From the NCBI RefSeq assembly GCF_964204865.1, contig NC_135255.1:14413135-14477134 (forward strand): a stretch of 64,000 bases of DNA, read 5' to 3'. Shown piece after piece: positions 31,795 through 60,056 of this stretch. The notes beneath the pieces were generated by a model that did not search any database, was not told where the DNA came from, and worked only from the letters and a program-made list of their open reading frames with translations. The position numbers were made by a program, and so were the translations under genes. Numbering within the stretch: the stretch's first letter is position 1; the number at the start of each line of letters is the position of its first letter. The stretch is from Styela clava. Taxonomy: Eukaryota > Chordata > Ascidiacea > Stolidobranchia > Styelidae.

Positions 31795-34356
31795 CTATTT
31801 TGTCAAGCCTTCCTTTTTGGCCTCTGTTTCATATATGAGCAGTCTCCACATCTTTACTACAAAAACTTCAGCTTCATCATCAAGCACCATGGAAACATCT
31901 TCGTAAATTCGTTCAGGAGGACTTTTTGACATAATCTTGCTGCATATGAATTCAACCAACGTGGGTTCTTCTTCGCCAATATATTCCACAATTTTTTTAG
32001 TTATCCAAGGCTGAATTCTTTTATCCATCAAGTTGGCATCAACTTGTGACCAATCGAGATTAAAATCAAAAAGGTCTTCTTTTTTCGTAGGTATTTTATC
32101 TATCAATGCACGTACCAACTTACGCTTGTCTTCCGATGTACGCACTGGATGAACTGCATTTTTCTCCTCATGGGTATACTCAAGCGGAACCAGTTTTCTT
32201 TTTCTGGGAACTTCCTCTTCATCATCATCTTGATTGAAAACGTCAGATACTTTGAGTTTTTTGCGTTGATTTCCTCCTGGAAGCTGCATGACTGGCTCGG
32301 TTTTAGGAATGTTTTGAGCAATAGGGTAGGCTGTCGGTGACAAGCTTTGCTCATCATATTCCATTTTTATCTCTCCAGAATTTTCTGGGGTATCATTACC
32401 ATTGTGTGAAATCGCTTCGAAAGTATTGAATGTGCCTTTCTTAAATGAAGTAGCAGGTTCATCCACAACAGGAACAAGATTAGCAGAGACAAGTCGAGGT
32501 CCGTTTGAGGATTTTTCTTCAGATTCAGCCTCGCTTTCACTAGAGTTAGATCCGGATTTTTCGTCCCTTTCTGACTCCGAGTCCGAACCAGATGATGAAG
32601 AAGAACTCGACGAAGTTCGCTTTTTCACAGAAGATTCTCTCTTCACAGGTGGTGGAGTGTCAGGTTTCAGTAATGGCTGCCATACATTTTCAGTTTCCTT
32701 CAAAGCTTTCGCGATTGCCGCTTCTGGGTCTGGATGGTTTTCCTCGACTAATTTTTGTCTGAGAGCATCAATCTCTTCTTGCTCCTTTTTGCGGTCTTTG
32801 TTGTCAGCATCATTTTCTCGTTCCCATTCCCTTCTACGTTTCATCATTGCACCACCAGTATAATATTTGGGATCCATTTTCAAGTCATCGTAGTCTGCAA
32901 GGAATTCTTGCAAACGTTTTGCCTCTCTCAACATTTCCTTACGAAGTATTAAATCTCGTTCATCTCTTTTCTCATATTCTCGCTTACGTCGGCGTTCGCG
33001 AACTTCCCACACTCTTAAACGTTCTTGATAAGCTTGTTCCTTTTCTCGAATTTTACGTTCAAGTCTCCTTCTTTCATAACTTTCATCATCTTCATCGTCA
33101 TCATCCCGTCTCCTGGGTGACCTTGATCGACTTCTGCGAATACGAGAACTAGATCTGTGATTTGACCTGCTTCGTGACCTTCTTCTTGGTGGTGTACGTG
33201 GCCGACTTGATCTCACTGGTGTTCTGCTCCTACGAATCCTTGTAACTGGTGATCTACTGTGGCGAGTTCGAGATGGTTCCCTTCTCCTTTGTGGAGTTCG
33301 ACTGCGATCCTTTTTTCTAGATCGTTCTCTCTCATCTCGTTCTTTTTCACGATGCCGACTCCGTTCTCTGTCCCGATCGTCATCTCGTTTCTCTTTTTCC
33401 TTTTCTAATCTCTTTCTTTTTTCGTCATCCTTCTTTTTTTCCTCTTCTTTTTGTTTTTGTGCTGCACGAAATGATCTTATTTCTTTACTTATGAAGTCTT
33501 TTTCACTATCTTCAAGGTCGAGATCCTTCAAATTTTCTTCCACATTATGCGACTCCCGCACCATGGGTTCCTCCATTCTTTGTACAGGGGCAGCGGGTGT
33601 AGGTTCTGGTTCATTATGTGTCGTGACAGACGTGTTAAGTTCAGCAGCATATTCTTTCATTAGTAAGTCCAAACCTGCTTTTGATTCGTCTACATTGGGA
33701 GGTGGAGCCTCGGATCCATCTTCTGGAGTTTTAATTCCATTATTTTCTTTCCATTTATTGATAATCTCTTGTGTTTTTGCATCTACTTTAACAAGGAGTT
33801 TTTTATCACCAAGTTTAAAGTCATGAAGAAGATAAATGGCACGAAGAGCTGATTCTACATCTTTATATTCACAAAATCCAAATGCTTGTAATTTTCCAGA
33901 TGCTCCTTGAACCCTTTTCCAAGCATATACTGTTCCACATTTCATGAGTATTTGTCGAACCAGCGTGTCTGATGCTCTTTCCGTGATATTACTAACGAAG
34001 ACAGTGACAGCAGGATTAGTTGTTCCAGAAGGGATAGCTGCAGCATTTGCCCCTGCTGCCGCCTCAACTTTAGCATTCATTCGGGCAGCTGCTTGCTGTT
34101 GCACTGCTACAGAGTTTGAAATAATAGCATGTGTTGCGCTGAAAGTTCTAACAATTTGTGGTCTTGGTGGTGCAGCTATCGTATGGATTGATGGGTTAAC
34201 AACAGGTCTCATGACAACTCCAACGCTGTTTGCAGGTAAAACGGTAACATGGCGAACTGGTGCTACTTGCACCATCATAGGAGGCTGTCGAACAGGTTGA
34301 ACTACTGAGGTAGCAAAAATTGACCCTGGAACCCCTGGTCGGAACGACATTCTCAT
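31795..34356 (-). CDS. RBM25: RNA-binding protein 25 (splicing regulator, RRM + ER/RS-rich + PWI)
   Basis: One uninterrupted exon of 853 codons (human RBM25 has 843). RBM25 is a U1-associated splicing factor in nuclear speckles. Order: alanine/proline/valine-rich N-terminus; RRM at about residues 117-195, with RNP2 VFVSNI and RNP1-like QAFGFCEY; an acidic linker; a long mixed-charge Arg/Glu/Lys/Asp-Ser region; a Ser/Glu-rich segment; and a C-terminal PWI domain (about residues 742-853) with DLFDFNLDWSQVD and IQPWITKKIVEYIGEEEP. Two in-frame starts occur (34356 and 34350); the second gives MSFRPG, like the human MSF start. A good 3' splice site (TTTTATTCATTTTGCAG) ends at 34409, so a 5' untranslated exon or trans-spliced leader may join there. 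The vertebrate gene is split by many introns, so the single-exon coding region is notable. Confidence 0.95.
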   Translation of the reverse strand: MRMSFRPGVPGSIFATSVVQPVRQPPMMVQVAPVRHVTVLPANSVGVVMRPVVNPSIHTIAAPPRPQIVRTFSATHAIISNSVAVQQQAAARMNAKVEAAAGANAAAIPSGTTNPAVTVFVSNITERASDTLVRQILMKCGTVYAWKRVQGASGKLQAFGFCEYKDVESALRAIYLLHDFKLGDKKLLVKVDAKTQEIINKWKENNGIKTPEDGSEAPPPNVDESKAGLDLLMKEYAAELNTSVTTHNEPEPTPAAPVQRMEEPMVRESHNVEENLKDLDLEDSEKDFISKEIRSFRAAQKQKEEEKKKDDEKRKRLEKEKEKRDDDRDRERSRHREKERDERERSRKKDRSRTPQRRREPSRTRHSRSPVTRIRRSRTPVRSSRPRTPPRRRSRSRSNHRSSSRIRRSRSRSPRRRDDDDEDDESYERRRLERKIREKEQAYQERLRVWEVRERRRKREYEKRDERDLILRKEMLREAKRLQEFLADYDDLKMDPKYYTGGAMMKRRREWERENDADNKDRKKEQEEIDALRQKLVEENHPDPEAAIAKALKETENVWQPLLKPDTPPPVKRESSVKKRTSSSSSSSSGSDSESERDEKSGSNSSESEAESEEKSSNGPRLVSANLVPVVDEPATSFKKGTFNTFEAISHNGNDTPENSGEIKMEYDEQSLSPTAYPIAQNIPKTEPVMQLPGGNQRKKLKVSDVFNQDDDEEEVPRKRKLVPLEYTHEEKNAVHPVRTSEDKRKLVRALIDKIPTKKEDLFDFNLDWSQVDANLMDKRIQPWITKKIVEYIGEEEPTLVEFICSKIMSKSPPERIYEDVSMVLDDEAEVFVVKMWRLLIYETEAKKEGLTK

Positions 34357-34409
34357 TTGTTGTTGGTTCTAGATTGTCTATTGATAGAATGCATAAATAA
34401 TTGTATACC

Positions 34410-39354: not shown

Positions 39355-42300
39355 TTATGTATCCATGTTCTCCTCTTCTAACAATGCATCTTCCTCTTCT
39401 TTAGTCAACTCTCTTTCCCCAGAATCTTCAGCAGTTTCCATAACATCCTCTTCTTCTTCTTTACTCGGTTGTTTCGAGTCTTCTTCCGCTGGTGTCTGGT
39501 CTTTGTCTGTTTCTGTTTGATCGCCACCGCTTGTTCGATTTTCAGATGCTTCGTCTGAAATTGACAATTCGGCCAAGTTCTGCTGTGTGTCCGTGTCTAG
39601 AATCACATTATGGGTTTGGTCAAACAGGGGAAACCAAAAATTTGATGATGTTTATTGCCCCAGGCTTGAAGTCAAAATATTCCCATTTATTTTCCCAGTA
39701 TTACTATATAACAGTTGGAAGGATATACGATACAAAACAATAACTATTCAGACCAGCTGAAATTTCTAAAACAAACAAGTTCCTTGCAACCTAAACATAA
39801 AAATGATATTACTAATTACCTTCTTCATCTGTCAAAGAACGTTTCGGACTTTCTGCAACACTGTCATTGCCATTATGCTCGAACCTACGTTTCCTTGCAT
39901 TATTGGCATCTGCCGGTCGTTCTTTTTCGACTTCAGCATCCTGTTTAACATCTAGAAAAATTAAAAAAAACTTTAGAAAAAGCAGAGACGATCAGTATTC
40001 AAAATATTTCACGATTCAATATTCAATGAAGCACCTGTTGATTGATTCTTGTTGCCATACTTGTTCTGATGATTAGAATGATTGTCCATTTTAAATGAAG
40101 GTGAGAGCTTCTCCATTCCCAGAATCTGAATTAAGCAAAACAAATCAAAATATTTCAGAGATTGGGGGGAAGCGATAACAGATTACTCACAGGAAGTAAG
40201 ACAATATTTATAATTTTACTTTCCACAACTCTTATTTCTACTTAATACTCAAAATAACCAGGCAATATCGCTCAAGAGCTAGTTTTAAATGAATCTAATT
40301 CAAAAATCAACCTACAAAATGAATCTCTCTGAAAGCAATCTGTCTCAAATATTTCTGAGAAACAGTCGTAATTTCTTCTCTGTGTTGCACAGTAAGACAA
40401 TCGAGAACATCACGCTGAAGAGATGCTTTTTCACATGGATCTGCTACTCCTGGCATACCTGATCAAAAGAATTGTGTTTGTGACCAACAAAAAGTTCTTT
40501 GCCAAACAACCAAGCAAGAAGAAAAATTATTACTCCACACCAGTGATTTTTACTAAGTACCATTTAAGATTCATGTGATATGTAAAATGATTGCTTTGTA
40601 ATTTGTTTTGTTGCTATACAAGTACAACTGCATATTCGTGGATCGAAAATTTTCGGGTTGTTTAAAAAAAGTTGGGAACGACTGCTCTATTCGACAAACA
40701 TATCTTTGAAAATATAGGAACACAAAACACTTACCTGGTAACAATAAACCACCAGCAAGTACTTCAAAAAATCTCCTACAAGCGTCACCAGGACTCATTT
40801 GCTCTTCAGAACTACTGAGACAACTGTATATCAGGACCTCCAATGGCTGTGAGATTAGAATAATAGTCAATTGTAAATTAGTAGAACAGGAAAAATAAAA
40901 TACATCATTCAGAAGGGTTAAGTATTCATAAATCTGTCAAAATCGAAATCAATGCATCATTCATAACATTCGTTTGTTTCGTGGAGATTTACTCAAAGCA
41001 ATTTCACACAAATTTGTTCCAACAGTTATGTCAATGAGAAATTTGTACTCAACAAGAATACACTCTCCAGTAAGCAATGGATATAAAATATAATTAATAA
41101 TTACATAAGTAGTGAAAAATTTGAACATCTCATTTCATCAGCGTTTTAGTCTCATTGTTCAAAACAGTATCTCCAGAAAAGATCGCAATATTTTACAATA
41201 TAGAATTGAAGTTAAAACAACTAGATTTTAATTTTTTAAAATAGGATTCTGGTATGAAAAATGTATTTAAACACTTCTATGAATTGGTGTATATATGCTT
41301 ATTTAAAATGCCCATTACCGAGTTAGTCAGGGAAGTCAACACCGCAAGAGAAGGATGTCAAAGAGTCAGTTGCTGTAGATAAACTGTGATATATCAACAT
41401 CTATTGGTTGTGAAACCTACCCATTCAGCGATGTGACTCCACATTTCATCTCTTCTTTGCAAATCCCTCAGAATTCTTGTTAAGATGACGCAGGACTGAA
41501 TGGAGCATGCTTTTGCCTGAAATGTAGACCCACATTGTAAAATTTGCCATATCAGTAACCCAGACTCGGCAAAGTCTAGGAGCGAAAAGACGCTGGCATG
41601 TCTTTAACAGCAGACAAAATTTTAGAACAAGCTCGCATCCATGTGCTACAATGAGCAGGACAAAGCGCGAGGTTGTCTTTACGTCAAATTGAGAGCTGAT
41701 ACCATGTGCAAAATTTACAAAAGATATAAATTTTTGTACTTCACAACTTAAAATCGGAACCCCGTAAACAAAAAAGAAGCAACATTCAATTATTTTACTA
41801 CAAACAAACAATCAGTTTATAAAATCTCAAGATAAATCCATCTAATCTGTTTACAGAGCTGGCCAATAATAAGTTGAAAAGTCGTATTTTTGAAATGAAA
41901 ATTTCACAAACACAAGGAACTTATTTTAAAATACAACTAATCGATAATAATTATGGACACGGTATCAGGTCCTACAAACAGGGCCATAAAAAGTTACCAG
42001 CTATCTATGAAGTCGGGGCAAAAAATGCCCGGTGAAAAATTCATATGAACCTGAAACCACTGAGTGTGACGAAGACAGGCGAGGGCTTCCAACATTTTAG
42101 CCTTGGGCAGCATTCCCTCAGGATCTGGCTCTGTTTTGGGTTGAAATTGAAACCCAGACGAATAAAAAACAAGACCACAAATATTAGTTCAGTTACTAAG
42201 CATAAGTATGTAACAGATTTTAGTCAAGATGATCACTAATCTTCATTGAAGCTGCAAAAAGATCAGAAAAAATGAATTCAGAGCCTACGGTATCAGTAAG

Positions 42301-45300
42301 TAATTTATCGAACAAAAGGTCTTGCAACCGTTCACCCACAAAATAATAAGTTGCGTAAATTAACTTTTTAATTTCTATACTGTGTAATTCATAAGTTCAC
42401 TTCAATATATCCAAGTTTGATTCTGAAATTATATTGTGATAGCAATAACATCACTACACTTTGTAGTAATAGTCTGGTAGCAACAACTCGGTAGTATTGA
42501 GCTTCGATTATCTTTATAAATTTGAACGCTGCTAACAAATGACCAATTTCACGAAATTAAGCATTCTAGCAGGTTTAACATTAAAATCATACCTTCTGCA
42601 GTCGTGGTTTCTTTTTCTTCTTTATTATCATTTTCCTCATCATCTTTTTTGCTTTCTTTTTTCGTTTCTGCTTCCTTTTTAGCAGGTTTTCGAAGAGCCA
42701 TAGCAGTGAGAGTGACCATAACCTAATAGAGAAAAATTTTCAACTTGATCATCTTACCATTGTTACCAATCTATCTCGCATTACTTTAGATTAATAAACC
42801 CCTGAGACTTTCAACCAATGTGGGCCCCACTGTTCTGCAAAAATGTCCAGTTTTGCTCTTTTAATTTTTCACCACATTCATTAATATTCAACAAATGAAT
42901 GCAAAATAATAAATGATTGCCTTACATTGGAAGAATTAAACAACTCAGTCAATTTCACACAGTCAACTAACACATTTATCGTGGAGCTTTTGAAAGCCTT
43001 GGACCATCATACCCAAAGAACCGTTCTGCGGCCCAGTTTGAGAAACCTGCTAGAGCTGTTTTAGAATTACACTTATAATAAATAGTTTGTATGGATTTTC
43101 GTCCAAATGAAGATCACGAGCACTTACTCAGGAGTGAAGGTATATCGAAGCAATCTATCATAGATTGATTCACAACAGATTTCACTAAAATCTGACATCT
43201 GTAATTAACCGAACATAATCTGTATGTTTAATAGAAATTACCTCAACAGGTGTATCTTCCACACTTTTGATTAAAAATCCGGCTTCTTCCTCCATTTTTA
43301 TAACGTTTAATTTGAAATCTTCATCAACAGTGAATAATTTTTCTAAGAAGACAAAAAAAAACTGATGCTACGACACTTTATTAATCAACACAAACTATTA
43401 TAAAATCAATCGTACCATCAATGTGTTCCATGATCCTGTCCAACAATTTAATAGTCGGTATTTCTCCGCAGAGAAGAGCTAGTTCAACATGATCATCTTT
43501 GGTGATGAGAAGTCCTTTAGCCAAAGGTCCAATCCTGTTGACTCCACAGAGAACTCTCGGACGAGTGTCAACCTGCTTGGGCGTCTTCTTTGGTCTTTTG
43601 AGTCTGAATAGTTTATTGAAAATAAATATGAATGTTGGGTTTTTATATTCAACATTGTTTTAGCTACACTATGAACAAAGGTTTGTAAAAAGCAGCCATT
43701 GACTGATACGTAAGAACGATTTTTCCAGCTCACGTTTGTATAAGCAATTAATTGCACTCTAGATGAGGAGATGAGCGAGAGGTTCAAACTCAGGATCTTT
43801 GAACCATGGGGTTCTATCATACACAAGTCCAGCGCATAAAGTTACAGAATAATCTATCCCAACTGTGGGACATGTGCTGAAAATGCATGACCAATCCATG
43901 ACATGTTCGCAATGCCATATTCATACTAATTTCTATTATCGCCTATTTTGTCAATCTACTACAACAGTTAGTCATTTAGAAAATCATTATACAACTGTGT
44001 AGCAAACTGTAGATAGGACATTACTGAGTCCCTTAGTACTGCTCAGACTTATTGGATTTTTTTTTTAAAAAGTACCTATCCTTATAATTAGCACTGACTG
44101 GCCCGTGGTGCAAAAAATAAAAAAACAAAATTGAATACATTTTAATTTTTGCTCTTTTTTCTTCTTTCTTTTCTTCTCCTTCCTTCTTTTCCTCTTCATC
44201 TTTCTTCTCGCTCTCATCTTTTTTCTCTTCTTTATTTTCCACACTAGTTTCTCCCTCTGTTTCTTTCTTTTCCTCGATCGCTTCTTGAGATTCTTTCTTT
44301 TCTTCCTCTCCCTCCTTCTTTGTTTCATCTTTTTCCATTTTTTCTGGTTCTTCTTTTTTAGCTGAAATAAACCAGTCATCATGATTAACATAAAATCGAG
44401 ACTTCAAGACCTTAATTTTACAACCCTAATTTTACAAGCACTCAATCAGAAGTAAAATAGACTCATCTTTAAGCAAAGTTAAGGGTACTCAGTCAGAAGT
44501 AAAGTAGACTGATATCTGAGGAAAGTTACAGGTACTCACTCAGTCAGAAGTAAATAGATTCACCTCTGAGCCAAAGTTACAGGTACTCACTCAGAAGTAA
44601 ACGACACTCATCTCTGAGCATAAAGTTATGCGCACTCACTTAGATGTAAACGATATTCATCTCTGAGCAAAGTTACAGGCACTCACTCTGAAGTAAAGCA
44701 GACTCATATCTGAGCAAAGAAATGCCCTACATCTTTTTATATGCATTTTGGAAATATGATGATCTTTGTTAGATCATTGCAATCACGAATTTCATATTTG
44801 AATAAGTCATCCGGAAAAATCATATTTTCGAATTGATCAATTAATTAATTATGGTATATTCAATATTTCAAATCCTTGGTTAAAAGAAGGAATTTAAAAA
44901 ATATTTTTCTTCCAAAAAGAATTTATTTAGGTCAAACAGTGCAATCATAACACCTTCATTCGATTCCTGAAAACTGTAAAAACATAGGATAAAAACATCA
45001 ATTTAACAACAATATTAAAATTGTCTTACGTTCTTCCTTAGGATGATCTTCGTTGACGAATTTATCTGACAAAAGTTTGAGAGCTTGTTCGACAGTGTTG
45101 ACAATTCTGTGAAGATTTTTCAATTCTCCCTCTTGTGGATAAATCTCTGCATGTTTCGTCATCATGTGACGATCGTCGGATGTGATAACAGGACGAGTCT
45201 AAAATTGATGAAGTATTAGATGGAAAGCGACTCCAAAAAAGATAAAGAAATATAAAATTGAAGTTTACCGTTCAAACTATTGACAGAAAAATTGTGACTT

Positions 45301-48300
45301 GTGTACTCGTTCGAAGCCAATTATTTGTAATACATAAACTTGAAATTGAAATAAAATTTCGCTTGAAAAGACAAATTTGAGCCGTGGCAGTCAAGATACA
45401 GTAAGTTATGAAAACATGAAAAATAAGTAACTTATAATAATCAGTGACAGTCAACTGTTGTGACAAGTTTTCCAGACCTAGGTCAGTGAGTGAATAGTTC
45501 CGTGAAAAAGATATAACCAAACCTGTTGAACACGCTCCCATTCTCCAGGCATAGCTTCCATAGGTTGCATGATGGGACGAGGGACTCCGGAACCTCCTCG
45601 TTTTCTTTCAGCTTCTTGTTGGTTTCTTATCATTTGACTGATGAACATATCTTCTGGGTGAGCCCTGATTAAACCGAATTTGTTCCATTTTTTAGGATGA
45701 AAAATTTAGTGAATACCAGACACGAAAAAGGATATTCAAAAATGATCGCCTTACTTTAAAATGAAAAACACATTTAATTTGGTATGTTGCTTTGGTTTTT
45801 TATCCCACACCTAAAACATGTTCGGATCAAATCTACATTTCGTAAACAAGTAAGTGCATGCAAAGTGAACTATATGCTGACAAAGTTTATTCGGTTTGAC
45901 ACCAGGATAGGGTTAGGCCATAATTTCATTTCAATTTTCCTTATTTTAGTTCTATTAAAAAGTTCGGGGATGAACCAAGTGACTTGCGTAGTATTTGTAT
46001 CTGAAATTAGGGCCTAACCCTGACTTGGTACACATCTACGTTCCGGTGTCCGCCTTCTTAGTTCGCATACTAAAGGAGTACCGAAATTTTTACCTGAAAT
46101 GCTAATTTTATTGGACAAAAGTAGCAGCAGGCCATCGTATCATTACTTGTACAACCTCTTTTGTATCCATAATCTCTATTTTGGCAAAATGCGCCAGCAG
46201 GGTAAAATATTTGTTTCAAAACTTACTTTGTTACTAGACAATATTTCAACATACCAGTCATTTCCTCTGCTCATATCCATCATTCTTTCTTCGATATCTC
46301 TTCTACGCCAGAAATCATTTTGTCTGTTTCTCATGAAAGGTGGAGGCATGCCCGGTCTCATATGCATGTGTGGTGGTCCCATGTGATGTGGTGGCCCCAT
46401 CATGGGTGGCCCATCCCACATTGGTGGCCCTAAAAGATTGAACAGATAATATAACTGATGTGCAGTTGATCACACATAAGCTGAGCAAGTGAAGAAAAAT
46501 GATAGAATTTTTGTCCTTTGGAAAATAGTAGGTATCGGTGCATTTGGTGGCAGTCATTCTACAGTGCCGTGTTAAGGATGAAAGGCACAAATAAGCGTCA
46601 AACAAAAGATATAAGTCACAATTTATGCAAAAATGGAAGAGCTGTAAGCCACGGGTTGCTAAAGATTATATTATGAGTTCTAAATACCGGTTCACAGAAG
46701 AACTGGTATGATTAAGGTTGACGATGTCGATGAAACATCAGAGCAAAAAAGTTATGAAAATATTTTTGACACAGACAAAAATCTTACTAAAATCCATCAT
46801 TCCTGGATGAGGCATTCTCATCAGATGTGGAGGAGGAGGTCCCATTGGTCCATCCCACGAAGGTCCTACTGGTAATGCCATGAGAGGACGAATTTCTCCA
46901 CCACCGCCACCCCCTCCTAAGAGTGGTCTTGGAGCCTGAGAAAGAATGGTTGAATTTGTAAATTTACAGAATAATTATGAAAATGCTGTTATAAATTTTT
47001 GTTCTAAATTATATTCACTCCATCTTTAGGAAAAAAGAATTCAGGACACAAACACATGCGCACATCCCACTTTACCCAGGGTGGGACAAATTGGGGAGGC
47101 CATACCAAATTGGAAAAGATTAACAGTGACAGCTTGAACGAAGCCGTGTTAGGAGAGAAGGCATTTAAATATGTCACATAAAAAACTAATGAAACTCGAC
47201 TCGAGCATTTTTTTTTTAATTATATAAATAACTTGGTACTTACCGGTCCCCAGTTTCCACGCTTATTTCTACGATCTCTGTCACGACCTGAAAATATTTT
47301 CAATAAAACATTTGTTCAGTTCGGATTGACTAACAAGAATATATATGTGATAAACAAAAATATTTTGCTGCTTGAATATTTTCGATTGAGGTTTTAGTGC
47401 AACCGTCACAAAAATAGTCGAATTAGACATTAATACGCATAGAAACAAAAATGTAACATTCTTAGATATTTATTTTCTAGTTATAATAGTTATTAGCATG
47501 TAGAAAAGAGATAAAAAGGACCCAATAACATTTTTTGGAATGAGATTATATTTTTGTTGATTAGAAAATCGTTTTAATGATAACTATCTTTTTTAAATTC
47601 TAACACGGGGTGGTGCAAGGTTGTCGGCTTTGTGGGCCACAAATTTATTTTTTCATTGTTCGTGGGCCACAATAGTGCCAAGAATAGGTAAACAGTGCAA
47701 TACAAAACAAACAATTTTATTGTGCAATCACATAGTTATCGGGCATAGGCATCCCAGGCTAATAGAATTCTCATTTAATTTTTGTTTTTCTATGATGCCT
47801 ATATTGTTAGCATATATTCCCGACCAAAAAGAGATTTTTCTGATTAATTTGATTACGAAACAACACGAAATGCGATTTATTGATTACTCTCCAAATGTGA
47901 CGCGAGCCACAGATAATGAAGCAGCAGGCCACATGTGGCCCGCGGCCCTGGGTTTGGACCACCCTGTTCTAACATATATTACTTAATTCTATCATTATGA
48001 CATAAAAATGCTAAAATTCTTTCTAGTTTACGATAATTGAGTTAATAAGTAACATACCGCCTTTTCTATTTCTATTAGTCATGTTGTTGTCTTTCTTAGG
48101 TACGAAAATTTCCTCATCAGGAATATCATCAACGGCTTCTTCTTTTACGTCTCCTATATCACCCTCCTTGTCATCAGGTACTTTCTGAAAGGCAAGTATG
48201 TTGCAATATTCGCACTACAGTGTCATTCTTTAAAATTATAACATTCGGAGTAACTTGATACACCATCTGGTACAGCGTGACCCAAAAGATCAGAATCCGG

Positions 48301-51300
48301 GTCATTTACGAGAGTCAATATTATTTCTGTGCAAAGCGTAATTGGAGGATTTATGGGTTCTATTTTCTGGGTTCTTTTTTCTTTTAGAGAATTTACAGTT
48401 TCTTTCAGCAAAAATTGAAATCTCGAAGTGAAATTATATTTTACGCTACATTTCACACAATAGTGACTTTTCAGCTTAGCTCAAGCTTTATAGCTGACAT
48501 GAGCAAACTACGACGTGCGGGCCAAATCCGGCCCGTTGGGTAATTCAATCTGGCCCACCTGATGCCGCCCAAGCAAAAACCAATTTTGATGTTTCAGCTA
48601 AAAAATAGCTCAAGAAATTTGTTGAGATTGCCATTAAATTTGGTTTTGGCAAGACGCTTATTGTTATTTTTGTTTATTATGTATTACATATGTAATATTA
48701 TTGTTCGCCACTTTTTCTTTTGTAAAACTGTAAATATTGTTCATAAAACTTTTCAAGTCACACTTACATAACCCGCCAGTCAAAGTGGGCAAAATTTTTG
48801 GCCCCTGGTCCAGAAACTTTGCCCACCCCTGCTTTATATTAAAAGAGATTGAAAATATTGCAAACTTATAATTTTAGATTGACAACCAAAACATTTATAC
48901 ACATGGCTAACATAACATTTATTTTTGCTTTGATAATTGATAAAACAATTTACTATATTTTTGTTGGGAAGCTCAGAATTGTTGATTTCTCCCATTCTAA
49001 CAAGATAGTCTGCAAATTTCCAGGCTGCTGTCGTCTGCGCTTCTTTTTTGTTTGCCGCTTTTCCAACACCGACAAAATTGTACTTATCAACTCGAAGCTG
49101 TTGAAGAAAACAAAATTCACAATATGATATATATTCAAATTTAAGAATCAAACCATAAAATATACTAATCTAAATTAATATCGGGACTTATATTCAAGCT
49201 TAAATAGAGGAATTTTATAATTTAAAGTATTAGAAAATTATGAATCTCAAAAAATATTTTAATGGTTAGGCGACTAACAATTTTGATAGCTAGCTTCCAA
49301 GTCCGATTCCAATCAGTCCTCTTTCGACTTAAAGTATAGAAGTCGAGGCCTTGCTTCGCATAAATTTGTGTAACAAAAAAACTACAGCAAGGAAACTTAC
49401 ATCACATCTGAATGAGATATTTGGTCTTTCACCAATCTGTCTGATGTCATAAGTCGGCCTCAGTTTCCGAGCACCAAGCCATGCATACAAGAATGTCTTG
49501 ATTTCTGAATGCTTTTCCTGTAACAGATAAAATAATATTCAAAAAAATTTATATTTTGTTTCTGAAAAAGTAGATATCATTACCAATCAACAACACTTTG
49601 CATTGAATTGGAAAAAAAACGGTAACAAAACTGACAAAATCACGAATCATTTTCTGAACACATCTTGAAAGATATTTTAGGATCAAACTGGCCCTATTCT
49701 GAATTTTTCCACTTTTCATGTCGTCAACCTGAATGGAGCTTTGTTTTAGCCACCACAAATATGTAAGTAGCTAATAATTTTCTACTTGTATTTTTGCAAT
49801 GACTGAAATTTTCCATTTTGGTCCTTGCCAAACCAATTTGCTACACTTGGTGGTAGGATAAATTTAAACCAGGCATCTGTAACTTGCTTGCATTATGCCT
49901 AAATCACACCATGTAAAACGAAGAAATGTTTCCAAATGAAATAATCACTAGTAATTTAAATACAGATGAATGCATTTGTTCATAGGGATTTAGTATACCT
50001 TGTCGATTACTTCTCCGAACTCTTTCTTGACTTCTTTCACGTCTTTGTCCATTTTATTAATCATTGACGTTCCACTCTTCTTGTTTGCTGGGCTCCATAG
50101 TTCTCTGTTTGATCCTGAGGAACCTGATATAGGCAATATTTGAAACTTTCGGAACTTTTTTTATACGACCTATTAGAACTGCAATTTTTGGCAGTGTAAT
50201 CATTGTGATATGGTGTACAATTCTGAATATGGACATTTTGGCATGTTTCATATATTATCAATTAAATTACTCAAAATCATACATGTACACTTATGAATAA
50301 TCAAACATGGTCAAGAGACTTTACTTATTATATTAGTCACCTCTTGCATTCCTTGAGTTATTACTATAAATTCCTCTGGGTTGCGGTGTTTGTTGTTGTT
50401 GTTGCTGATTTCCAAATCTTCCTCCCCCACCGCCAATATTTCCCCCTCCTCTTCCCCAACTAAAAGCAAAAAAAATTGTATATAAGGTGTCAGTATTAGT
50501 ATCTTGCAAGAAAACTTAAAAAAAAAATGCTGAATATATGACTGTATCGTGCAATGAAAAAAAAATAGAATACTAGAATTGAATACAGACATTTGTACAT
50601 GAAGCAAGAGGCCTAGTAATAAACTTTCATTGTCCATTACCTTGCCAAAAAGTGTAATAATTTGTGCAGGCTATGCCAAAGTAGAAAACATAACTCACCG
50701 CTGTTCTCGTTGCTCCCCAAAGTTTCTCTAAGAACAAAAAGGAATAAAAATATTACAAATTTAATAAAAGAACAATGCTCAAATATATGAGAATGAAGCA
50801 CAAATAACTGATGGTCACTGCAATATAATGAAATGAAACAAACTGTACCGAATGTCTTATTAAGTTGTTCCCTGCATCATTAAAAAATCAGCATAATTTA
50901 GCGTGAAATATTGTGACCCACAAGACAAAAATGCTGACGAAAATATATCAGTAGCCTTCCATCTGGAATTTATAACAAAAATGTGAAATCAAATGATCCA
51001 CTAGTCGTAATCGCTAAAAAAATCTACCATATTTCACGAACCCCAAAGCACCAGGTTATAAGACGCATCGTCAATAAATTGCTGGAATTAGTTTTTTTTC
51101 TATACTCCATGTACACAAGGCAGACCATGCTATTATAAAACTCAACTGGTATGTTATGTTTTGAGTGTCAACAAAAAGCTTCACCTAAATTTGCTCTCCA
51201 TTTTTTTAATTGTTTGTATTGCTAAATTATTGCGTGTGACTTGCGCAACTGTAGGGGCCCTGTATATATCTCCCTAATATATCGCAAGTGAATTGTGCAA

Positions 51301-54300
51301 CTGCAAAGGCTCTCGTTATAAGAATGAAAGTTTGCTGAGAAGCATGTGATCAGTCCAATTGTTGATCTGTGATGGACTACAAAAGGCAACTGTCTATGAA
51401 AAACTTTTCATTAGTGTTCTTTCCTATGCAACCCAATTAAGGCAAAGAAATTTCTTCTCTTTTTGCATCATGTACTCATTTTAGCTTGATATCCTTTCAT
51501 TCGTAGGAGATTTTAAGTTGTATTGAGAAATATTATCAAACGGATTGCGGTATGTTAACAAAATATCCAAAGGGTGTGGAACTTGAGAAAAAATGCAAAA
51601 CTACTGCATTAGGTGAGCTGGCTTATAAGGCGTACAATCGATTATTGAGAGAGAACGTGCGCCAAATGATCCGTATGTGTATCCAGTGTGCATTATTTCA
51701 TAAACATACCTGTTGTTGCCAGTTATCCTGCCTTGGTGGACCATCATATCCATCCTGAGAATGCCACGCTCTCGGAAACGGTGGAATATCTGGTCCATCT
51801 CGAGGACCTTGATTGTTACCACCATAACTTTGGTTTCCACCCCCTCCTCCCATTGGGCTGCGTTGGGTCAACAGGGGTCTAACTGGGCCCCCTCTCTGCC
51901 CACCTTGCATGTTGTTATTCATCCCAACATTACCTGAAGATATTAATTATTATGATTATTCACAAGTATATGATATCTATTCTTAGAAATTAAAATTTTG
52001 TAATAAGAAAAATCGTCATTTAAATACTTTGCACATTGTTGAATTAGCTAATATTTGCTGTTTTCATTTGTTTTAAATCTCCTTAAAAAATTATAGAATA
52101 AGTAGAATAAAAGACTATTTTTTTCAGAAAAAAGTTAGCATATAATTATGAATTATGATACATACAAAAATTACAATTTATACCAAATACAAGGATGATA
52201 CAGTGAAATATTCATATATGAAGATTTCTCTGTATTTACAGAACACTTCAGAATCGTGTGCAAGGGAACAAAAGCTTATTTTTATGGTCTATTTAAAACG
52301 AGAATATGCATAGTAATCATGCACAGAAGAGTCCAGAAGTCTTTGATACAATTATTACAGTAGTTTACCATTTGCATTATTAGGGCTTTGTCCATATCCT
52401 CTATTATAATTTCCTTGATTGTTGCCTTGATTGTAATTACCACTGTATGTTTGTTGGTTTCCTTGGTTTCCACCAGCCTGGTAACCAGTTGATTGGTTTT
52501 TGTATCCTTGGTTTGCATTGTAACCTCCTTGACTGGGACTTGAATATGATGCTTGCTGTAAAGAAAGAGACAAAAAAATGCGTTAAATAAGAATTCCAAA
52601 GTAACTTTAAATGAAAGCTACCTAGTCCTATAAGAATTTTATAAACACAACACGTTTGACAGGTCTATGTTATATGAAAAAATAGCCCAAATGGCATTCG
52701 GCAAATTATAATAGTGTGTCGCTAGTAAATATGCTCATTTACGTTTGAGTGAGTGCATGTCTCCCTATCTCAAGCAAATAGTCCCAGAAAAAAAGAAAAA
52801 ATCGTATTGCCAGTTGAGTGAAACAAGCAAGTAAGAGCTATAACATTAAAAAAAATGTGAGAAATTTTATATTAATTTTGCCACATGTCTTTCCTCAAAG
52901 GGAAAAATTCAGTGAAATTTCAAATCAATTACATACAAGAAAATGATGCTATTACTAAAAATTGAACAGTTTATCAATCAAACTACAATTTATAACAAAC
53001 TCAAAAGTGAAAGTGAAATTGAGCATACATTATACTTTCGTTGTAAAATAGACAAAATTTTGAACATTTGAAATTGAAATAAACTGCAAAACAGAACAAA
53101 TACTTTTGAATAAGTACGAAGTAGTACGGTGTACAGGTAAGCAATCTGTCACAGTAGACTAACGGTACCGCAGTCCTCACGACTCCGCCTGTCCATCAGA
53201 TAGCAAAAGGTGACGCTGCTACAAGGCATGAAATTTTCAATTTTGAGGACATCATTGGCCATTGCACAAAAAAAAAAAATAATCCCATAGATTTTTCATA
53301 ATAAAAGAAGAAAAGAAATACGAACAACAAGAAAAGCATAATAACAAAACGATCACATCCAATAAATAGAATTCTACAATATAAAGCTAGTTTAAATTGA
53401 ATAAATTGGGCCATTATTAACATACCTGATTATTTCCGTAACCTTGGGCTTGCTGGGTTCCATATCCTTGTTGTTGAGTAGAACTGCCATAACCTTGGCT
53501 AGGACTACTAGTGCCATATCCAGCCTGTGTCGTGTTTCCGGCTGGTGATTTATAAGCTTGATTGGCAGTGTAGCCCTGAGTCGATCCATACTGTGTGTCA
53601 GTCTGATTAGGAAAATGTATTAAAAGTTATAGAATGGGATTTACAAATTTATCTCGAGGAGAAGAAAGTTAATGAGATGGCATAATCATATGGCGAACCA
53701 TGACCTTTCATCAGATTACCAGTCTATGTCGGGTATGGGATTAGGTAGTCAGTCGTTCCTTTCAGATGCATGGACTTGATGATGGAGGCCCAAAGCGTTC
53801 CAGCAATTACGTGATCAACACTACGATGGCGAGGAGTCCAGCAATCCCAGTGAATATAATTATCCGCATGGGAGTCGAATAAGGATAATCAGAAGTGCGG
53901 TGGTGAGTGTATTCCTAACGCTCAGCAGTGCTCGCACGATGCGCAACACCGCCGGTTAAGGATTATAATTTTTTTTCAAAATTCCAGTCAGATGCCTTGT
54001 ATTAAGCATAGACTTGATTGATACGTTTACGGTCCATACATAGTGGAAACCGATTAGGTTTTCATGAAATATCATCACCAGGTCTAGTTTTACATCTTAT
54101 ACAATACAACACAAATCTTCAATTGGTTCAACATATACAATGACAGAATAATATCTATGAACTGCGTTGTATTGTCTTTCTCATAATTGGGCAATTTTGA
54201 AGTTAATGATCTATTTGTTTTACTTTCGTTCAGTTTCATAAATTAAAGTTTTCAATATTAAAACTTCGGGAGATAAGATATGAGATAAGGGGGAAAAAGA

Positions 54301-57300
54301 AAATGTCTTTTAGTTGGAGTCTTTAATCATCTTCAAGCGGTAAACACTCGAAATTGTGTTGCGTTCACCCCAACAAAAACAACAATTTAGCGAATCAATC
54401 CATACGTATATTTTGCGTCCAATAACAAAAAAAATACCGAATATTTCATTGGACTTCTGTAAACTAGTCCAGCTGGTTTTTGTTGTTGATTGGTCAGAGA
54501 AGATGTTTGTTGACTTGCTATGCCTGGTTGTTGTTGTTGCTGTTGTTGTTGTTGATAAACACCCCAACCTGTTTTTGCAGTGTCAGTCTAAACAAAAAAA
54601 CAATACATAAATATAGAAAACATCGAGTAAAATTGTCATCAAAATTTGGAAACTTTGGAATCCTAGTTTTTTTTTAAAACTCCTAATATTTATTACTTCT
54701 ATTATTCATTACATAGTAAACTACGACGAAAAAAACTTTGAATTCTCAAACATATTTATTAGGTGAATTAAAATTATTTCGAATTATTGAAAAAAAAAAA
54801 CTGATTTACGTCAAATGTCACTACAATAATAATTCCTGTATAAGGTTATCGCTAATGAAATAAAATAACATACCCTGGTAGCAATTGCTGAAGGAGACTG
54901 ACGTTGGTTGTATGCCCCCCAACCAGTAGACTGCTGCTGAGTGTCAGTTTTAGCTAAATTAAGAGAAAAATGTTGAATTCTCATTCCAATTTTAGTATCG
55001 TTCAGTTAACACAACATTAAATGCACTAACTACTACACAAAGTGCAAACACAAATCAACATAACCAATTGATGGCATCTAACAATCCTTATAAGGAGAAA
55101 GGCAGAAACCCGAGCTTGAAATTCAATTTGGAAACATATAATTTGTTAGAACTTGATCATTTTAAAATCATTGGCATAGCTCAACTCTGCTCCATGATAA
55201 AAATGATTGATCCAAGTAAAAGTGTGTAAATTTCAAAGATGCGTATAGTATATGCCTTCAATGTATTTATGTCTATTATATATAAATAGCATAAGCATCT
55301 ATCAAATTACTAAATCAATTTATAAAATTAAAACATTTTTTTACGTTTAGCGGCAAGAGCTTGAGGAGTTTTGAATAGTCCTTGTTGTTGCTGCTGTTGT
55401 TGTTGTTGTTGATTAGTTGATCCTGGGAATATTTATTAAAATGCCAGAATTAAGAACACAGCAGAAATCAATGCTACAAATATGATTGGAACAACAGTTT
55501 TTGTAAATTGTCTTTTCAATTAAAAGGAATGATCGATCAAACTAAAACAGCAAAGCTATGAATTTTTTTTTCTTTCTATACAGTTGATTCATACAAAACA
55601 TAATTTACCTGCTGTATTTCCCACATATTGCTGGTAAGCTGAAATTTGCTGTTGGTATTGTTGAATGTACTGAATATAAATAAATCAATAAACATTAATT
55701 TTGCACATATCTTTTACACTTAGGTGCAAACTCATAACATTGTATCTCCATAATTACATTCATGATCAGTCAGTGGCCATGCTTATTAGAAAATAGTAAG
55801 AATATAGGAATACAGTAGTCTTCAATAAATTTAAAAAAAAAAATTAAAAAAATTTGATTTTTTTTTTCAGAAAACTGGAATGTCCAATGAAATGAACGTA
55901 TAAAACTATCAAGTCAATAAATTATGGCCACTATTAATTCTGAAATTATATTAAATTAAAAAAGGGAAAAATACATTGAGTATAAAATTGTATTTTCATA
56001 GCAGAAAGTTTACACAACCATTTTTCTAAAGTACCTGTCCATATTGTTGCTGACTTGCTGTTTGTGACGATGTTACGGCTTGCTGCTGCTGCTGTTGTTG
56101 TTGTTGTGCAGGAGCTGCAGCCGTACCACTTGATGCATTGGGACTACTATACCAAGATTGCTGTGAAAATTTGTCAAAACACTTGTTCATAGATAGTTTT
56201 GAATTAGGCTCAGTCACAGTAGAAATACAAAATAGACTGAATGGAAATCCCTTTCTAATAGCATCCTCTACGCACAAGCCCACCAAATAATTCAAAATTT
56301 TTCAGATACAGTAAATATGTTTATGTTATTGAGTAATGCGCATATTGCACCAAATTAATAGATAATAAACTATATATTCTATTGCTTATAATAAATAAAC
56401 CTTGCAAACCTTGGTTACCTGGAAAGCCTGCAAAGCTGCATTAGTGGCAGTTGAAGCACTATAACCAGAAGTTGCATCAGTTCCATAATTGTAACCGTAA
56501 CCCCCAAAGTTATAAGTACTTTGAGCTGTCGTTGTAGTAGCAGCAGCAGTGGAGCCATATCTGAAATTATTAAAAATTGATTCAAGCAATAAATGGATTC
56601 ATTTTACCCAGGTTATCGAACAAATTCTTTACTATAAAAAGTGTGGCCTTTTCATAAAGCATTAATGTGAACAAGATATAAGACCCATATATCTTACCCC
56701 TGGCCAAGATCAGGAATGTCTACAATATAACGAATATTAAAATGCATATAGAGATATTGGCGCTCCCAAAGTATGTGCACTAAGATGGCGCACAGCCTGA
56801 ACCCTAACCTGATACACATACTATAGTAAATTCTTGATTTCAATAATAATTCAAGATTATTTTCTTCAGAAATTTGTCATTTAACATCTCATGGTCAGAT
56901 ATAAAAGAGACTTCTTAATATAACTTCTAGTAATGTAAAAAATAGAAAATACCCCAACTGTTATATGTATGTCCATAAACAGAAACAAATAAAGGACAAG
57001 AACCAATTTGGAATATATTCAATATTTCATGCTTGAAATATTACTTCACAATGCATTCAGAATAGTAATTTATTCAATTATGGCTATCCATAGTAATCAG
57101 GTACATTTTAATTTTACTGGACTACGTAAAAAACATAGGACATCAACTAACGAATCACTCTATCATGTCAGTATGGGAAGGTGTAAGAGTCTGCACCTGA
57201 TTAAGACTAAATAGTAAAAAAAAAGTCATCTTCCAAATTTTTATATTTTTGACAAAACAATTTTCTTTGAAATCTCACCCAGCATATGAGCTCACACTTG

Positions 57301-58105
57301 AAGCTGTTGTAGAAGCAGTCGTTGCGGATCCTGATGTTCCATATCCTGAAGCAGCTTGTTGACCATAATGTCCATATCCAGATGTTGCTGGCGTTTGAGT
57401 GCTGTAAGATGATGGTTGCGCAGCAGCATATTGACTATAAAATAGCAAGATAAAAAAACGATAAAGTGTTGAAGTTGCACATATTTAAATTGAGGACCAT
57501 AGTTTGAGGTTCCATTTTAGAATGTATCAAATCTTTTAGTATTCGTACGACATTATGAAAAAATAATTTTGCCATTTGTGAATTGTGTGTTCCACACATC
57601 AGTATTTATAGTTTGTATTAGTGATATTTATATCTCCGCAACAATCTTTCATTGTTCTAGAATTTGAACAAATATAAATTAATATGAACTAATTTAATAA
57701 AAATGACAAATTTAATTATTATGCTAAATCAGTAAATGCTGATTTTATTGCAAAGATAAAATAAATTTTCAGGATTTCAATCAATCATATTTATTTTAAA
57801 TTAAAACATTCTTTTTATTATCAGTAGTATACATAGGCTAGGCTGCGTATTTTGTTTCACCTAATATAAATTGGTCAGAAATTCCTATTCCGTATATGTA
57901 TGTGATGTGAGTGAATTCGCGCGTAAGAAATTCAGAAAACACACACTACATCACTACGGGCACATAGTCGCACGTGACCTGGTGTCATTCAATAGAATAT
58001 TAAAAATTATTTTAACTACGTCGTATTCTTATTTTACAACTACATAAATAAATAACAAACTTACCCATAGGAGGTCCCATATGCAGCGGCATAATTGTAC
58101 GACAT
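39355..58105 (-). CDS. DZF-domain RNA-binding protein with N-terminal prion-like region and DHX9-type dsRBD (ZFR/ILF3 family)
   Basis: Thirty-three exons, all with GT-AG borders and matching phases, give 1432 residues. Exons: 58105-58065, 57434-57279, 56560-56419, 56160-56035, 55669-55609, 55422-55345, 54953-54874, 54587-54438, 53602-53426, 52555-52369, 51933-51710, 50727-50699, 50459-50341, 50123-49999, 49517-49401, 49097-48954, 48184-48058, 47287-47244, 46935-46788, 46429-46255, 45664-45523, 45198-45030, 44361-44139, 43603-43416, 43342-43242, 42722-42593, 42130-42051, 41516-41421, 40846-40735, 40458-40316, 40125-40035, 39951-39820, 39596-39355. Residues 1-565 are Q/G/Y/S/N-rich (FET-like, poly-Q runs). 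About 570-650 is a dsRBD (KTFLYAWLGARKLRPTYDIR, NKKEAQTTAAWKFADYLVR) closest to DHX9 dsRBD1. About 710-864 is Pro/Met/Gly-rich, like the ZFR linker. About 865-1283 is a DZF domain (DDRHMMTKHAEIYP, IGPLAKGLLI, QSCVILTRILRDL, GVADPCEK) with two K/E-rich loop expansions. The C-terminus is acidic with ARKRRFE, NLS-like. DZF proteins dimerise and act in RNA processing. Confidence 0.85.
44438..44719. repeat. Minisatellite, about six units of 48-54 bp
   Basis: Units follow CACTCA.TCAGAAGTAAA..GA..CATCTCTGAGCAAAGTTACAGG with indels, starting near 44440, 44487, 44536, 44586, 44634 and 44684. The array lies in the intron between exons 22 and 23 of the DZF gene, next to the K/E-rich exon. Confidence 0.75.
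45880..46082. mobile_element. MITE family 1, truncated copy
   Basis: It contains GGTTAGGCCATAATTTC on the left and CTACGTTCCGGTGTCCGCCT on the right, matching the ends and interior of the 6818-7054 element. The centre (CCTTATTTTAGTTCTATTA) is inverted relative to that copy. The left terminus is lost. It lies in the intron between exons 20 and 21 of the DZF gene. Confidence 0.6.
47606..47966. mobile_element. hAT-type MITE with perfect target duplication
   Basis: The 361-bp element starts CGGGGTGGTGCAAGG and ends TTTGGACCACCCTG, with subterminal GTGGGCCAC / GTGGCCCGCGG motifs typical of hAT ends. TTCTAACA flanks both sides (47598-47605 and 47967-47974), a perfect 8-bp duplication. It lies in the intron between exons 17 and 18 of the DZF gene. 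Confidence 0.8.
48494..48831. mobile_element. hAT-type MITE
   Basis: The left end has GAGCAAACTACGACGTGCGG followed by GCCAAATCCGGCCCG, and the right end CAGAAACTTTGCCCACCCCTG, the common hAT terminus CAGGGGTGGGCAAACT. Flanks CTTTATAG and CTTTATAT match at 7 of 8 bases. It lies between exons 16 and 17 of the DZF gene. Confidence 0.75.
53690..53960 (-). mobile_element. SINE-like repeat with tRNA-like head
   Basis: Read on the minus strand, GGCGGTGTTGCGCATCGTGC is followed by CACTCACCACCGC and then TTATTCGACTCCCATGCGG, which resembles a Pol III B box (GGTTCGANTCC) at the expected distance. A body of about 150 bp follows. GC content is clearly above that of the surrounding intron. This assignment is by structure only; no second copy is present in the window. 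Confidence 0.4.
56759..56826. mobile_element. MITE family 1, internally deleted copy
   Basis: GGCGCTCCCAAAGTATGTGC, with ACTAAGATGGCG just after, is joined almost directly to CCCTAACCTGATACACATAC. Both ends of the family-1 MITE are thus present with the middle deleted. It lies between exons 2 and 3 of the DZF gene. Confidence 0.6.
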
Positions 58106-58751
58106 GGCGACTGATATAGCCCAATGAAACGAAGAGCCGAATCCACTCTTCGCTGAAAAAGCTGATCCAACCCGCGGAAAAAGGACGACAAGCTCGGCGC
58201 GGGGCAAGCGGCTCAAACGGAAACGCGTTGCTTAGCCTGGATAGGTGCGTGAGAACTGTTTTATGTGTTTTAAAATGCTGGAACTAATTTACTTTATGAA
58301 AAAAAATATTCAAATTGTTAACGACTAAATTTTAATCTTGTAAGTTTAAAATAGAGCAGTTTATCAATGAAAAATACATATTTATCATGACGTCATAAAT
58401 TTTGGAAAAATGGGAAAGACGCATGCGGCGCAATGGAGCAACAGAAATTTGTTTGATTCGACGTAAATCTTACGCACATGCTCAATCAAGCGTGCGTAAC
58501 GTAGGACGTGTCGCAGCGCATTTTTAGGATTTCAAGAATTTGCCGAGCGTGTTAGTTAACCGATATGTCTACTGGAAAAAATAAATCACTTCTATTTTTG
58601 CAATATCACATATATATATACATATATATTATGCTTACTCAGAGCAAATTTGAAGTTTTTCCAATAACACCATTTCAATTCTAATTTCTATTCTCGTAAA
58701 TTACAGAATTGGCATTAATTATCAAATATAGTAAAATATCGATACTGTGAT
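58106..58751. promoter_or_regulatory. Divergent promoter region between the DZF gene and ataxin-10
   Basis: The 646 bp between the two opposed start codons must hold both promoters. The half next to the DZF gene (about 58140-58250) is GC-rich for this window, with CpGs (CGGCGCGGGG, ACGCGTTGC). The ataxin-10 half is AT-rich and includes an alternating TATATA run at about 58609-58630. A 3'-splice-like TAAATTACAG ends at 58706, 46 bp before the ataxin-10 ATG. Confidence 0.5.
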
Positions 58752-60056
58752 ATGAATTATGCAGAGCTACAAAACAAGTTCAAAAATGAAGAATTCAGGA
58801 ATTGTGATCATACTCAGTTATACAAAGAACTGCTCAATGAATTAATTGTTGTTGATCAATCCAAAGAAGAAGACCAATTGATTTTGTTGGATATTCTCAG
58901 AATTTTGCGTAACAGCTGCATTGAATGCCAGCAAAATCAGAATATTGTTATGAAGATGAATATGCCTGAAACTGTATCAAAAATGGTATACAATCTCAAT
59001 CAAAATGATAAATATATTGATAAACTTTATACTTGTGCTTTTCAATTTTTTGGAAATTTTGTAGCTGGAAATTTAGAGACACAAAAGTATTTCTGGAATA
59101 TTGTATTTCCTGACTTTTTCATCAAATTTTTGTGTGAGAATCAAGAAAGAGAAAATTGTACTGAAATTTGTATTATGATTTTGTATAACTGTCTTTTGAA
59201 GAACAAAATTCATCAGGATGATTTATTTTCAAACCCAGAAGGAGAGAGGATTGTTTTAGCCATCTGTAATATGGTATCTCAAACTGAATTATGCAGTTGG
59301 GTTTATTTGTGTGTCACGAACATTTTCTTCAATCACCCAATGTTTTTGCCTCTGTTATTTTCAAAATCATCTGACAAAATTCAACTCATCGTTCTACAAC
59401 TTTACTGTGATTCAAGAGAGGAAGAAAACGATGCAAATATTACTGACTCTAACAGATCTAATATCATGGTGCTCTCTGAACAATTTCTGATAATGTATGA
59501 AGTTTTGTGTGAGGGACATTCCTCAAGTAACATTGAATTTTCAGCTGTATTACTTGATACACTATGTTGGGTTACAGCTATATCTGGATCTTGGAATGAT
59601 GAGATTGATGCTTCAAAGCTAATACATTCACTTATTGACCTATTAAAAGGTTTAAATTTAGTTGATAAAAATGGCAAATCTAATATTACTGATATGCCAG
59701 CTACCAAACGTAGCGGTTTAATTCAAATTTGCGATCACGCTATGCCTTTTAAACGAAGTTTAGTTAGATTGTTGGGAAATTTATGTTATCGAAACTCCAA
59801 ACTTCAGGATGATATTCGAGAATTAGGTGGAATTCAATTGATTCTTGAATGCTGTAATATTGATGATAACAACCCTTTTATGCAACAGTGGGCATTATTT
59901 GCGATTCGTAACCTTTGTGAAAATAATGCCGCAAATCAGACAGAAATTGGAAAACTTGAAAAATTAGGTATGGCAGACAGTCCTGTCTTGAGAGATATGG
60001 GTATTGCTGCTGTGCAAGATAAGGATGGAAACTTACGCTTGGAACAACAAAAGTGA
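58752..60056 (+). CDS. ATXN10: Ataxin-10
   Basis: A single exon of 434 codons (human ataxin-10 has 475). Ataxin-10 is a cytoplasmic armadillo-like helical-repeat protein implicated in neuronal survival, cytokinesis and cilia. The C-terminal Ataxin-10 domain is clear: KRSLVRLLGNLCYRN, LGGIQLILECCNIDDNNPFM and QQWALFAIRNLCENN, at about residues 335-395, close to the human order. The N-terminal two thirds is helical and leucine-rich, with repeats such as LRILRNSCIECQQNQ. The ATG is the first in the frame and follows an AT-rich leader. AATAAA lies at 60174, 118 bp past the stop, and COG1 begins 354 bp downstream on the same strand. Human ATXN10 has many introns, so the intronless form is a point of interest. 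Confidence 0.92.
   Translation: MNYAELQNKFKNEEFRNCDHTQLYKELLNELIVVDQSKEEDQLILLDILRILRNSCIECQQNQNIVMKMNMPETVSKMVYNLNQNDKYIDKLYTCAFQFFGNFVAGNLETQKYFWNIVFPDFFIKFLCENQERENCTEICIMILYNCLLKNKIHQDDLFSNPEGERIVLAICNMVSQTELCSWVYLCVTNIFFNHPMFLPLLFSKSSDKIQLIVLQLYCDSREEENDANITDSNRSNIMVLSEQFLIMYEVLCEGHSSSNIEFSAVLLDTLCWVTAISGSWNDEIDASKLIHSLIDLLKGLNLVDKNGKSNITDMPATKRSGLIQICDHAMPFKRSLVRLLGNLCYRNSKLQDDIRELGGIQLILECCNIDDNNPFMQQWALFAIRNLCENNAANQTEIGKLEKLGMADSPVLRDMGIAAVQDKDGNLRLEQQK

Follow-up and report, generated by a model that had tools for sequence, protein, structure and literature searches.

The 64,000 bp window analysed here (Styela clava contig NC_135255.1, positions 14,413,135 to 14,477,134) harbors on its minus strand a gene (58105..39355; hereafter the window gene) whose predicted product comprises, in order, a low-complexity region, a double-stranded RNA-binding domain (dsRBD) of the DHX9 type and a DZF_N/DZF_C domain pair. 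Exon-by-exon rebuilding yielded 33 exons (4299 nt) encoding 1432 amino acids and a stop codon, with GT-AG boundaries at all introns (32/32), consistent phases and an in-frame stop solely at the end. This is the same chain, without a frame break, as that given in a preliminary description of this DNA made from its letters, which had reported 33 exons of consistent phase summing to 4299 nt. Judged from the sequence, the dsRBD-DZF architecture is real and is unremarked in the literature searched; among the papers listed in searches on DZF and dsRBD proteins, none concerned the fusion of a DZF domain with a dsRBD of DHX9 type, and a search pairing DZF with Ciona returned no match.

Exons 1-13 (50341..58105) encode, by exon chain and composition, a Q/G/S/A/Y-rich low-complexity N-terminal region (residues 1 to ~523), with residues 1-545 containing 18.7% Q, 14.9% G, 11.4% S and 8.1% Y. 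The FET proteins (FUS, EWS and TAF15) carry an RRM and a RanBP2-type finger behind a QGSY-rich region, and the earlier label of a FET-like region holds for the composition but not for the domain content, as neither an RRM nor a RanBP2 finger was found in the Pfam search. Exon 14 (49999..50123) adds a lysine-rich segment leading into the dsRBD, which resembles dsRBD1 of DHX9 and is divided between exon 15 (49401..49517; KHSEIKTFLYAWLGARK..FRCD; placed by exon chain and PDB search) and exon 16 (48954..49097; LRVDKYNFVGVG..NKKEAQ..LPNKNI), both ending in phase 0. Intron retention across 48837-48954 would yield a protein composed of the low-complexity region and the dsRBD, without the DZF domain. 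A linker of acidic, basic and P/G/M-rich segments with an FWRRR motif follows (exons 17-21; 45523..48184). The DZF region starts in exon 22 (45030..45198; SDDRHMMTKHAEIYP) by alignment with ILF3, includes a long E/K-rich insert in exon 23 (44139..44361), and is completed by exons 24-31 (40035..43603), to which the remainder of DZF_N and DZF_C is assigned by Pfam and the ILF3 alignment. Exons 32-33 (39355..39951) encode a basic patch (ARKRRFE), an acidic tail and the stop codon TAA. The splice-site scores are low for the donors of exons 16 (1.6; ATA/GTAAAT), 19 (1.5), 23 (1.8) and 30 (1.8) and for the acceptors of exons 28 (1.9) and 33 (-2.9). Exon 33 may start at 39596 or 39554.

An ab initio gene finder, with codon scores trained on four neighbouring open reading frames (ORFs) and a splice matrix trained on the window gene model itself, recovered the chain as one gene. 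Exact matches were obtained for 31/33 exons at penalty 14 (exons 1 and 33 differing), 31/33 at penalty 17 (exon 28 missed and exon 33 differing) and 29/33 at penalty 20, while a run at penalty 6 was set aside as too lax (76 exons, including 27 of the 33 model exons). Exons 2-13 were exact at penalties 14 and 17 and the linker exons 17-21 at all three, and each of the three runs placed the start of exon 33 at 39554 rather than 39596, in the same frame and 14 amino acids shorter. Cut points were tested at 100-base intervals between 49900 and 45400, and at penalties 14 and 17 a single gene scored 14.0 and 17.8 bits, respectively, above the best pair of genes. The single gene proposed in the preliminary description is therefore upheld at the level of prediction.

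Comparison of the spliced protein against Pfam (E<=1) reported solely DZF_N (residues 995-1164; e-value: 1.9e-14), DZF_C (residues 1169-1287; e-value: 1.1e-23) and dsrm. The DZF region finds its best PDB match in ILF3 (e-value: 3e-57), followed by ILF2 (e-value: 7.6e-18), in line with its initial assignment to the ZFR/ILF3 type. The dsRBD matches dsRBD1 of human DHX9 (3vyy; e-value: 1.4e-23), mouse RHA (e-value: 2e-23) and Drosophila MLE (best e-value: 3e-17), followed by Loquacious (e-value: 0.04); its 11 PDB matches (E<=10) include neither an ILF3 nor a STRBP chain. Similarly, in a tree of 16 dsRBD rows the dsRBD1 of the window gene and that of a second S. clava gene, described below, group with DHX9/MLE dsRBD1 (support 100/98), apart from ILF3, STRBP and ADARB1. 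Both comparisons thus agree with the original attribution of this domain to DHX9 dsRBD1 rather than to ILF3/STRBP. Neither a zinc-finger family nor a helicase core was reported by Pfam for the spliced protein. A C2H2 pattern search of the window in six frames gave three matches, none on the strand of the gene within the gene, although an intron-split finger would be missed by such a pattern. Fingers hidden in the introns were considered and rejected, as no unbroken C2H2 pattern occurs there on the strand of the gene, and the absence of fingers and helicase noted from the outset stands on both searches.

The S. clava genome (376.6 Mb; 379 contigs) was searched with exons matched one by one, which limits sensitivity. 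Two DZF families and three proteins (the products of the window gene and of the gene on contig C16, and human ILF3) located DZF-bearing sequence at four places, namely an ILF2-like cluster on C6, C10:17.90 Mb, C16:8.29 Mb and the window gene, with the C16 protein the only query to match all four. All matches of the human ILF3 DZF query (12/12) fall at the window, C16 and C10 loci. The predicted C16 gene (8.280-8.299 Mb) encodes 974 amino acids, its 5′ end not having been found, with a Y/Q/S-rich start, three dsrm domains, DZF_N and DZF_C. Its chain is that of the gene finder at penalty 14 (21 exons) edited by hand, the first exon and 8281697-8281768 being dropped and 8296923-8297018 added. The nearest relatives of its dsRBDs are DHX9 dsRBD1 (e-value: 2.1e-18), DHX9 dsRBD2 (e-value: 2.5e-23) and MLE dsRBD2 (e-value: 1.4e-10), respectively. 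By gene prediction, the combination of DHX9-type dsRBD and DZF is not a one-off, since the C16 gene has three such dsRBDs before its DZF domain, which is identical to that of the window gene at 125/318 positions.

A further DZF gene on C10 (17901808-17905684) has a W/G/Q-rich N-terminus in one long exon and a very divergent DZF domain; DZF_C alone of the Pfam families exceeded the cut-off in its predicted product, with no dsRBD or finger predicted. ILF2-like sequence is also present in the genome, with one exon matching ILF2 (e-value: 4.3e-8). It occurs at approximately six places over 760 kb of C6 (20.61-21.37 Mb), on both strands and with stop codons in some matches. In human the ILF2 gene is single.

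The DHX9 gene of S. clava, on contig C3, encodes dsRBD1, dsRBD2 and the helicase; its model is rough beyond the first 483 amino acids, which match DHX9 (e-value: 3e-116) and MLE (e-value: 5.8e-106). A phase-0 intron lies within dsRBD1 at the same codon in DHX9 (between FKCE and LRVD), the window gene (FRCD and LRVD) and the C16 gene (FVCT and LKIS), and a second phase-0 intron lies at the 3′ edge of this domain, following VPPKS in DHX9, LPNKNI in the window gene and LPQKP in the C16 gene. The C16 and DHX9 genes furthermore share a phase-1 intron in dsRBD2 (before FTAKERGSNKK and LHAREHGSNKK, respectively). Because intron positions and phases are shared among the three genes, a copy of the DHX9 dsRBD exons at the DNA level, introns included, is likely and an origin by spliced copy unlikely, which lends support to the capture from DHX9 suggested at first. 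DHX9 would be the donor and not the recipient, since the dsRBD-helicase order occurs in both fly and human chains.

A finger query based on a provisional ZFR sequence, not taken from a database, gave six matches at four loci of the genome, none of them a DZF locus. The match on C9 lies in an 862 amino acid ORF with two fingers and was rejected as ZFR, as no DZF query matched anywhere on this contig; that on C8, a 298 amino acid ORF with several fingers named by eye as JAZ-like, was likewise rejected, and those on C4 and C18 are weaker. A query for ILF3-type dsRBDs gave four matches across the genome, the best with an e-value of 0.17. A dsrm family search returned 21 matches, none at DZF loci, but it missed the known dsRBDs of the window, C16 and C3 genes and is no test of absence; similarly, the window, C16 and C10 genes escaped the DZF_N family search, and the window gene the DZF_C search, because exons were matched one by one. 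On the basis of these exon-by-exon searches, a fingered ZFR and ILF3 are nonetheless likely absent from this genome. A query with the spliced leader of Ciona gave two matches, compared to one for its reversed control, which does not confirm a tunicate assignment.

Several features flank the window gene. A putative ataxin-10-like ORF (Pfam Atx10homo_assoc) is arranged head-to-head with it, the putative start codons of the two lying ~650 bp apart (58105-58752), and a TGACGTCA palindrome is located between the two at about 58395-58388; perhaps they share a promoter. On the same strand, a long open frame (31795-34368) encodes RRM and PWI domains, and we take it to be RBM25-like. Several long single-exon ORFs neighbour the exon-rich window gene.

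The predicted protein shares features with several known systems. Like ZFR/Zn72D, it is long and has its DZF near the C-terminal end, and it further resembles them in its low-complexity N-terminus and an FWRRR-like motif before the DZF (both by comparison with the provisional ZFR sequence), but differs in having one DHX9-type dsRBD and no C2H2 finger. It resembles DHX9/MLE in the sequence of dsRBD1 and its two phase-0 introns, but lacks the helicase core and dsRBD2. ILF2/NF45 consists of a DZF alone; it belongs to the same fold family and is the likely partner of the window DZF, which is itself nearer to ILF3 than to ILF2. As in ILF3/NF90 and STRBP/SPNR, which carry two dsRBDs, DZF and dsRBD are found within one protein, but here the dsRBD is single, of DHX9 type and placed before the DZF. 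Those of ILF3 and STRBP are ADAR2-like and follow it (PMC4770229). Vertebrate NF90 and SPNR are there proposed to have arisen by the joining of ADAR2 dsRBDs to the DZF of Zfr (PMC4770229), and the predicted window gene is a comparable combination in which both donor and domain order differ.

A number of observations weigh against a single gene with a DHX9-derived dsRBD. The one-gene structure is a prediction, its ab initio recovery is partly circular given the training of the splice matrix, and the donor linking exon 16 to the linker is weak. The frame past this donor is open for 39 codons (48954 to a stop at 48837), and a short isoform without the DZF is possible through read-through. The Pfam dsrm match (residues 572-629; e-value: 3.3e-4; 21.6 bits) falls just under its cut-off of 23. 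The 3′-edge introns of dsRBD1 in DHX9, the window gene and the C16 gene agree only to within one codon, and a phase-2 intron in DHX9 dsRBD2 is absent from the C16 gene. The 16-row tree was flagged for long branches, and the pairing of the window and C16 dsRBD1 is weak (82/76 in 16 rows; 75/79 in six). In approximately unbiased (AU) tests, neither the grouping of the window dsRBD with S. clava DHX9 (p = 0.26) nor that of the C16 dsRBD with it (p = 0.107) was rejected. In a 7-row DZF tree, none of six tested groupings could be rejected (p = 0.146-0.336). Finally, the highest identity of the window DZF, 140/311 with ZFR compared to 125/325 with human ILF3, involves the provisional ZFR sequence, the only one compared.

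The architecture may alternatively be old and widespread among invertebrates, without a name in databases, and have disappeared from flies and vertebrates instead of being new in this lineage. The divergence of the window and C16 DZF domains would agree with such an age and, because of it, the fusion, if single, would not be recent. However, the fly relative Zn72D is described without a dsRBD (PMC4770229), and the best 6-row tree joins the dsRBD1 of the window, C16 and S. clava DHX9 genes (71/78, weak), a grouping that would be compatible with capture inside this lineage; we regard an old origin as a serious contender, somewhat short of an even chance. It is doubtful that the window and C16 genes acquired DHX9 exons independently of each other. 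The window dsRBD is nearer to that of S. clava DHX9 (39/80 identical) than to that of C16 (33/80), and the AU test leaves the former grouping standing, but the best trees pair the dsRBD1 of the window gene with that of C16 and the module lies between a Y/Q-rich N-terminus and the DZF in both genes alike. That two adjacent genes, one with the low-complexity region and dsRBD and the other with the DZF, were wrongly merged is highly improbable. The low score of the exon-16 donor, the occurrence of nine AATAAA or ATTAAA motifs within 48923-47220 and the predicted status of the joined model favor such a merger, but one gene scores better than two, phases are consistent through exons 17-21 and the C16 locus, itself also predicted, joins dsRBDs and DZF in the same order.

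We therefore favor, with considerable confidence, a single gene encoding an RNA-binding adaptor with a disordered N-terminus, a DHX9-derived dsRBD and a ZFR/ILF3-type DZF, probably working as a partner of ILF2. The exons of the DHX9 dsRBD module would have been duplicated, introns included, to the front of a DZF gene, and more of the module would be retained in the C16 gene (dsRBD1, dsRBD2 and an additional domain resembling dsRBD2). The DZF would pair with ILF2/NF45, the dsRBD would grip double-stranded RNA in place of the ZFR fingers, and the Q/G/S/Y-rich N-terminus may provide multivalent assembly. All three ZFR fingers are conserved between C. elegans and human, mH2A1 splicing is not affected by a truncated ZFR that lacks them, and the ZFR DZF has a nucleotidyltransferase-like fold without essential catalytic residues (PMC5861047). 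The complex may act on structured pre-mRNA in splicing or editing, as ZFR/Zn72D (both processes) and NF90 (editing) do (PMC8304401, PMC5861047); editing is regulated by DZF proteins and by DHX9/Maleless (PMC8304401), and the splicing of maleless requires Zn72D (PMC2680859).

Our confidence is evenly divided on the broader proposal of a second, independent invention of the dsRBD-DZF combination, by which, in this lineage, a DZF gene of ZFR type received dsRBD exons from DHX9 and lost its fingers, and two ILF2-paired genes now stand in for both ZFR and NF90. DZF proteins recruit NF45 to structured RNA and, if this proposal is true, the NF45-pairing module would have been coupled repeatedly to readers of double-stranded RNA, with DHX9 dsRBDs placed before the DZF and ADAR2 ones after it. 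The S. clava genes would then represent a natural swap experiment, in which fingers and dsRBD may be compared on the same dimerisation domain.

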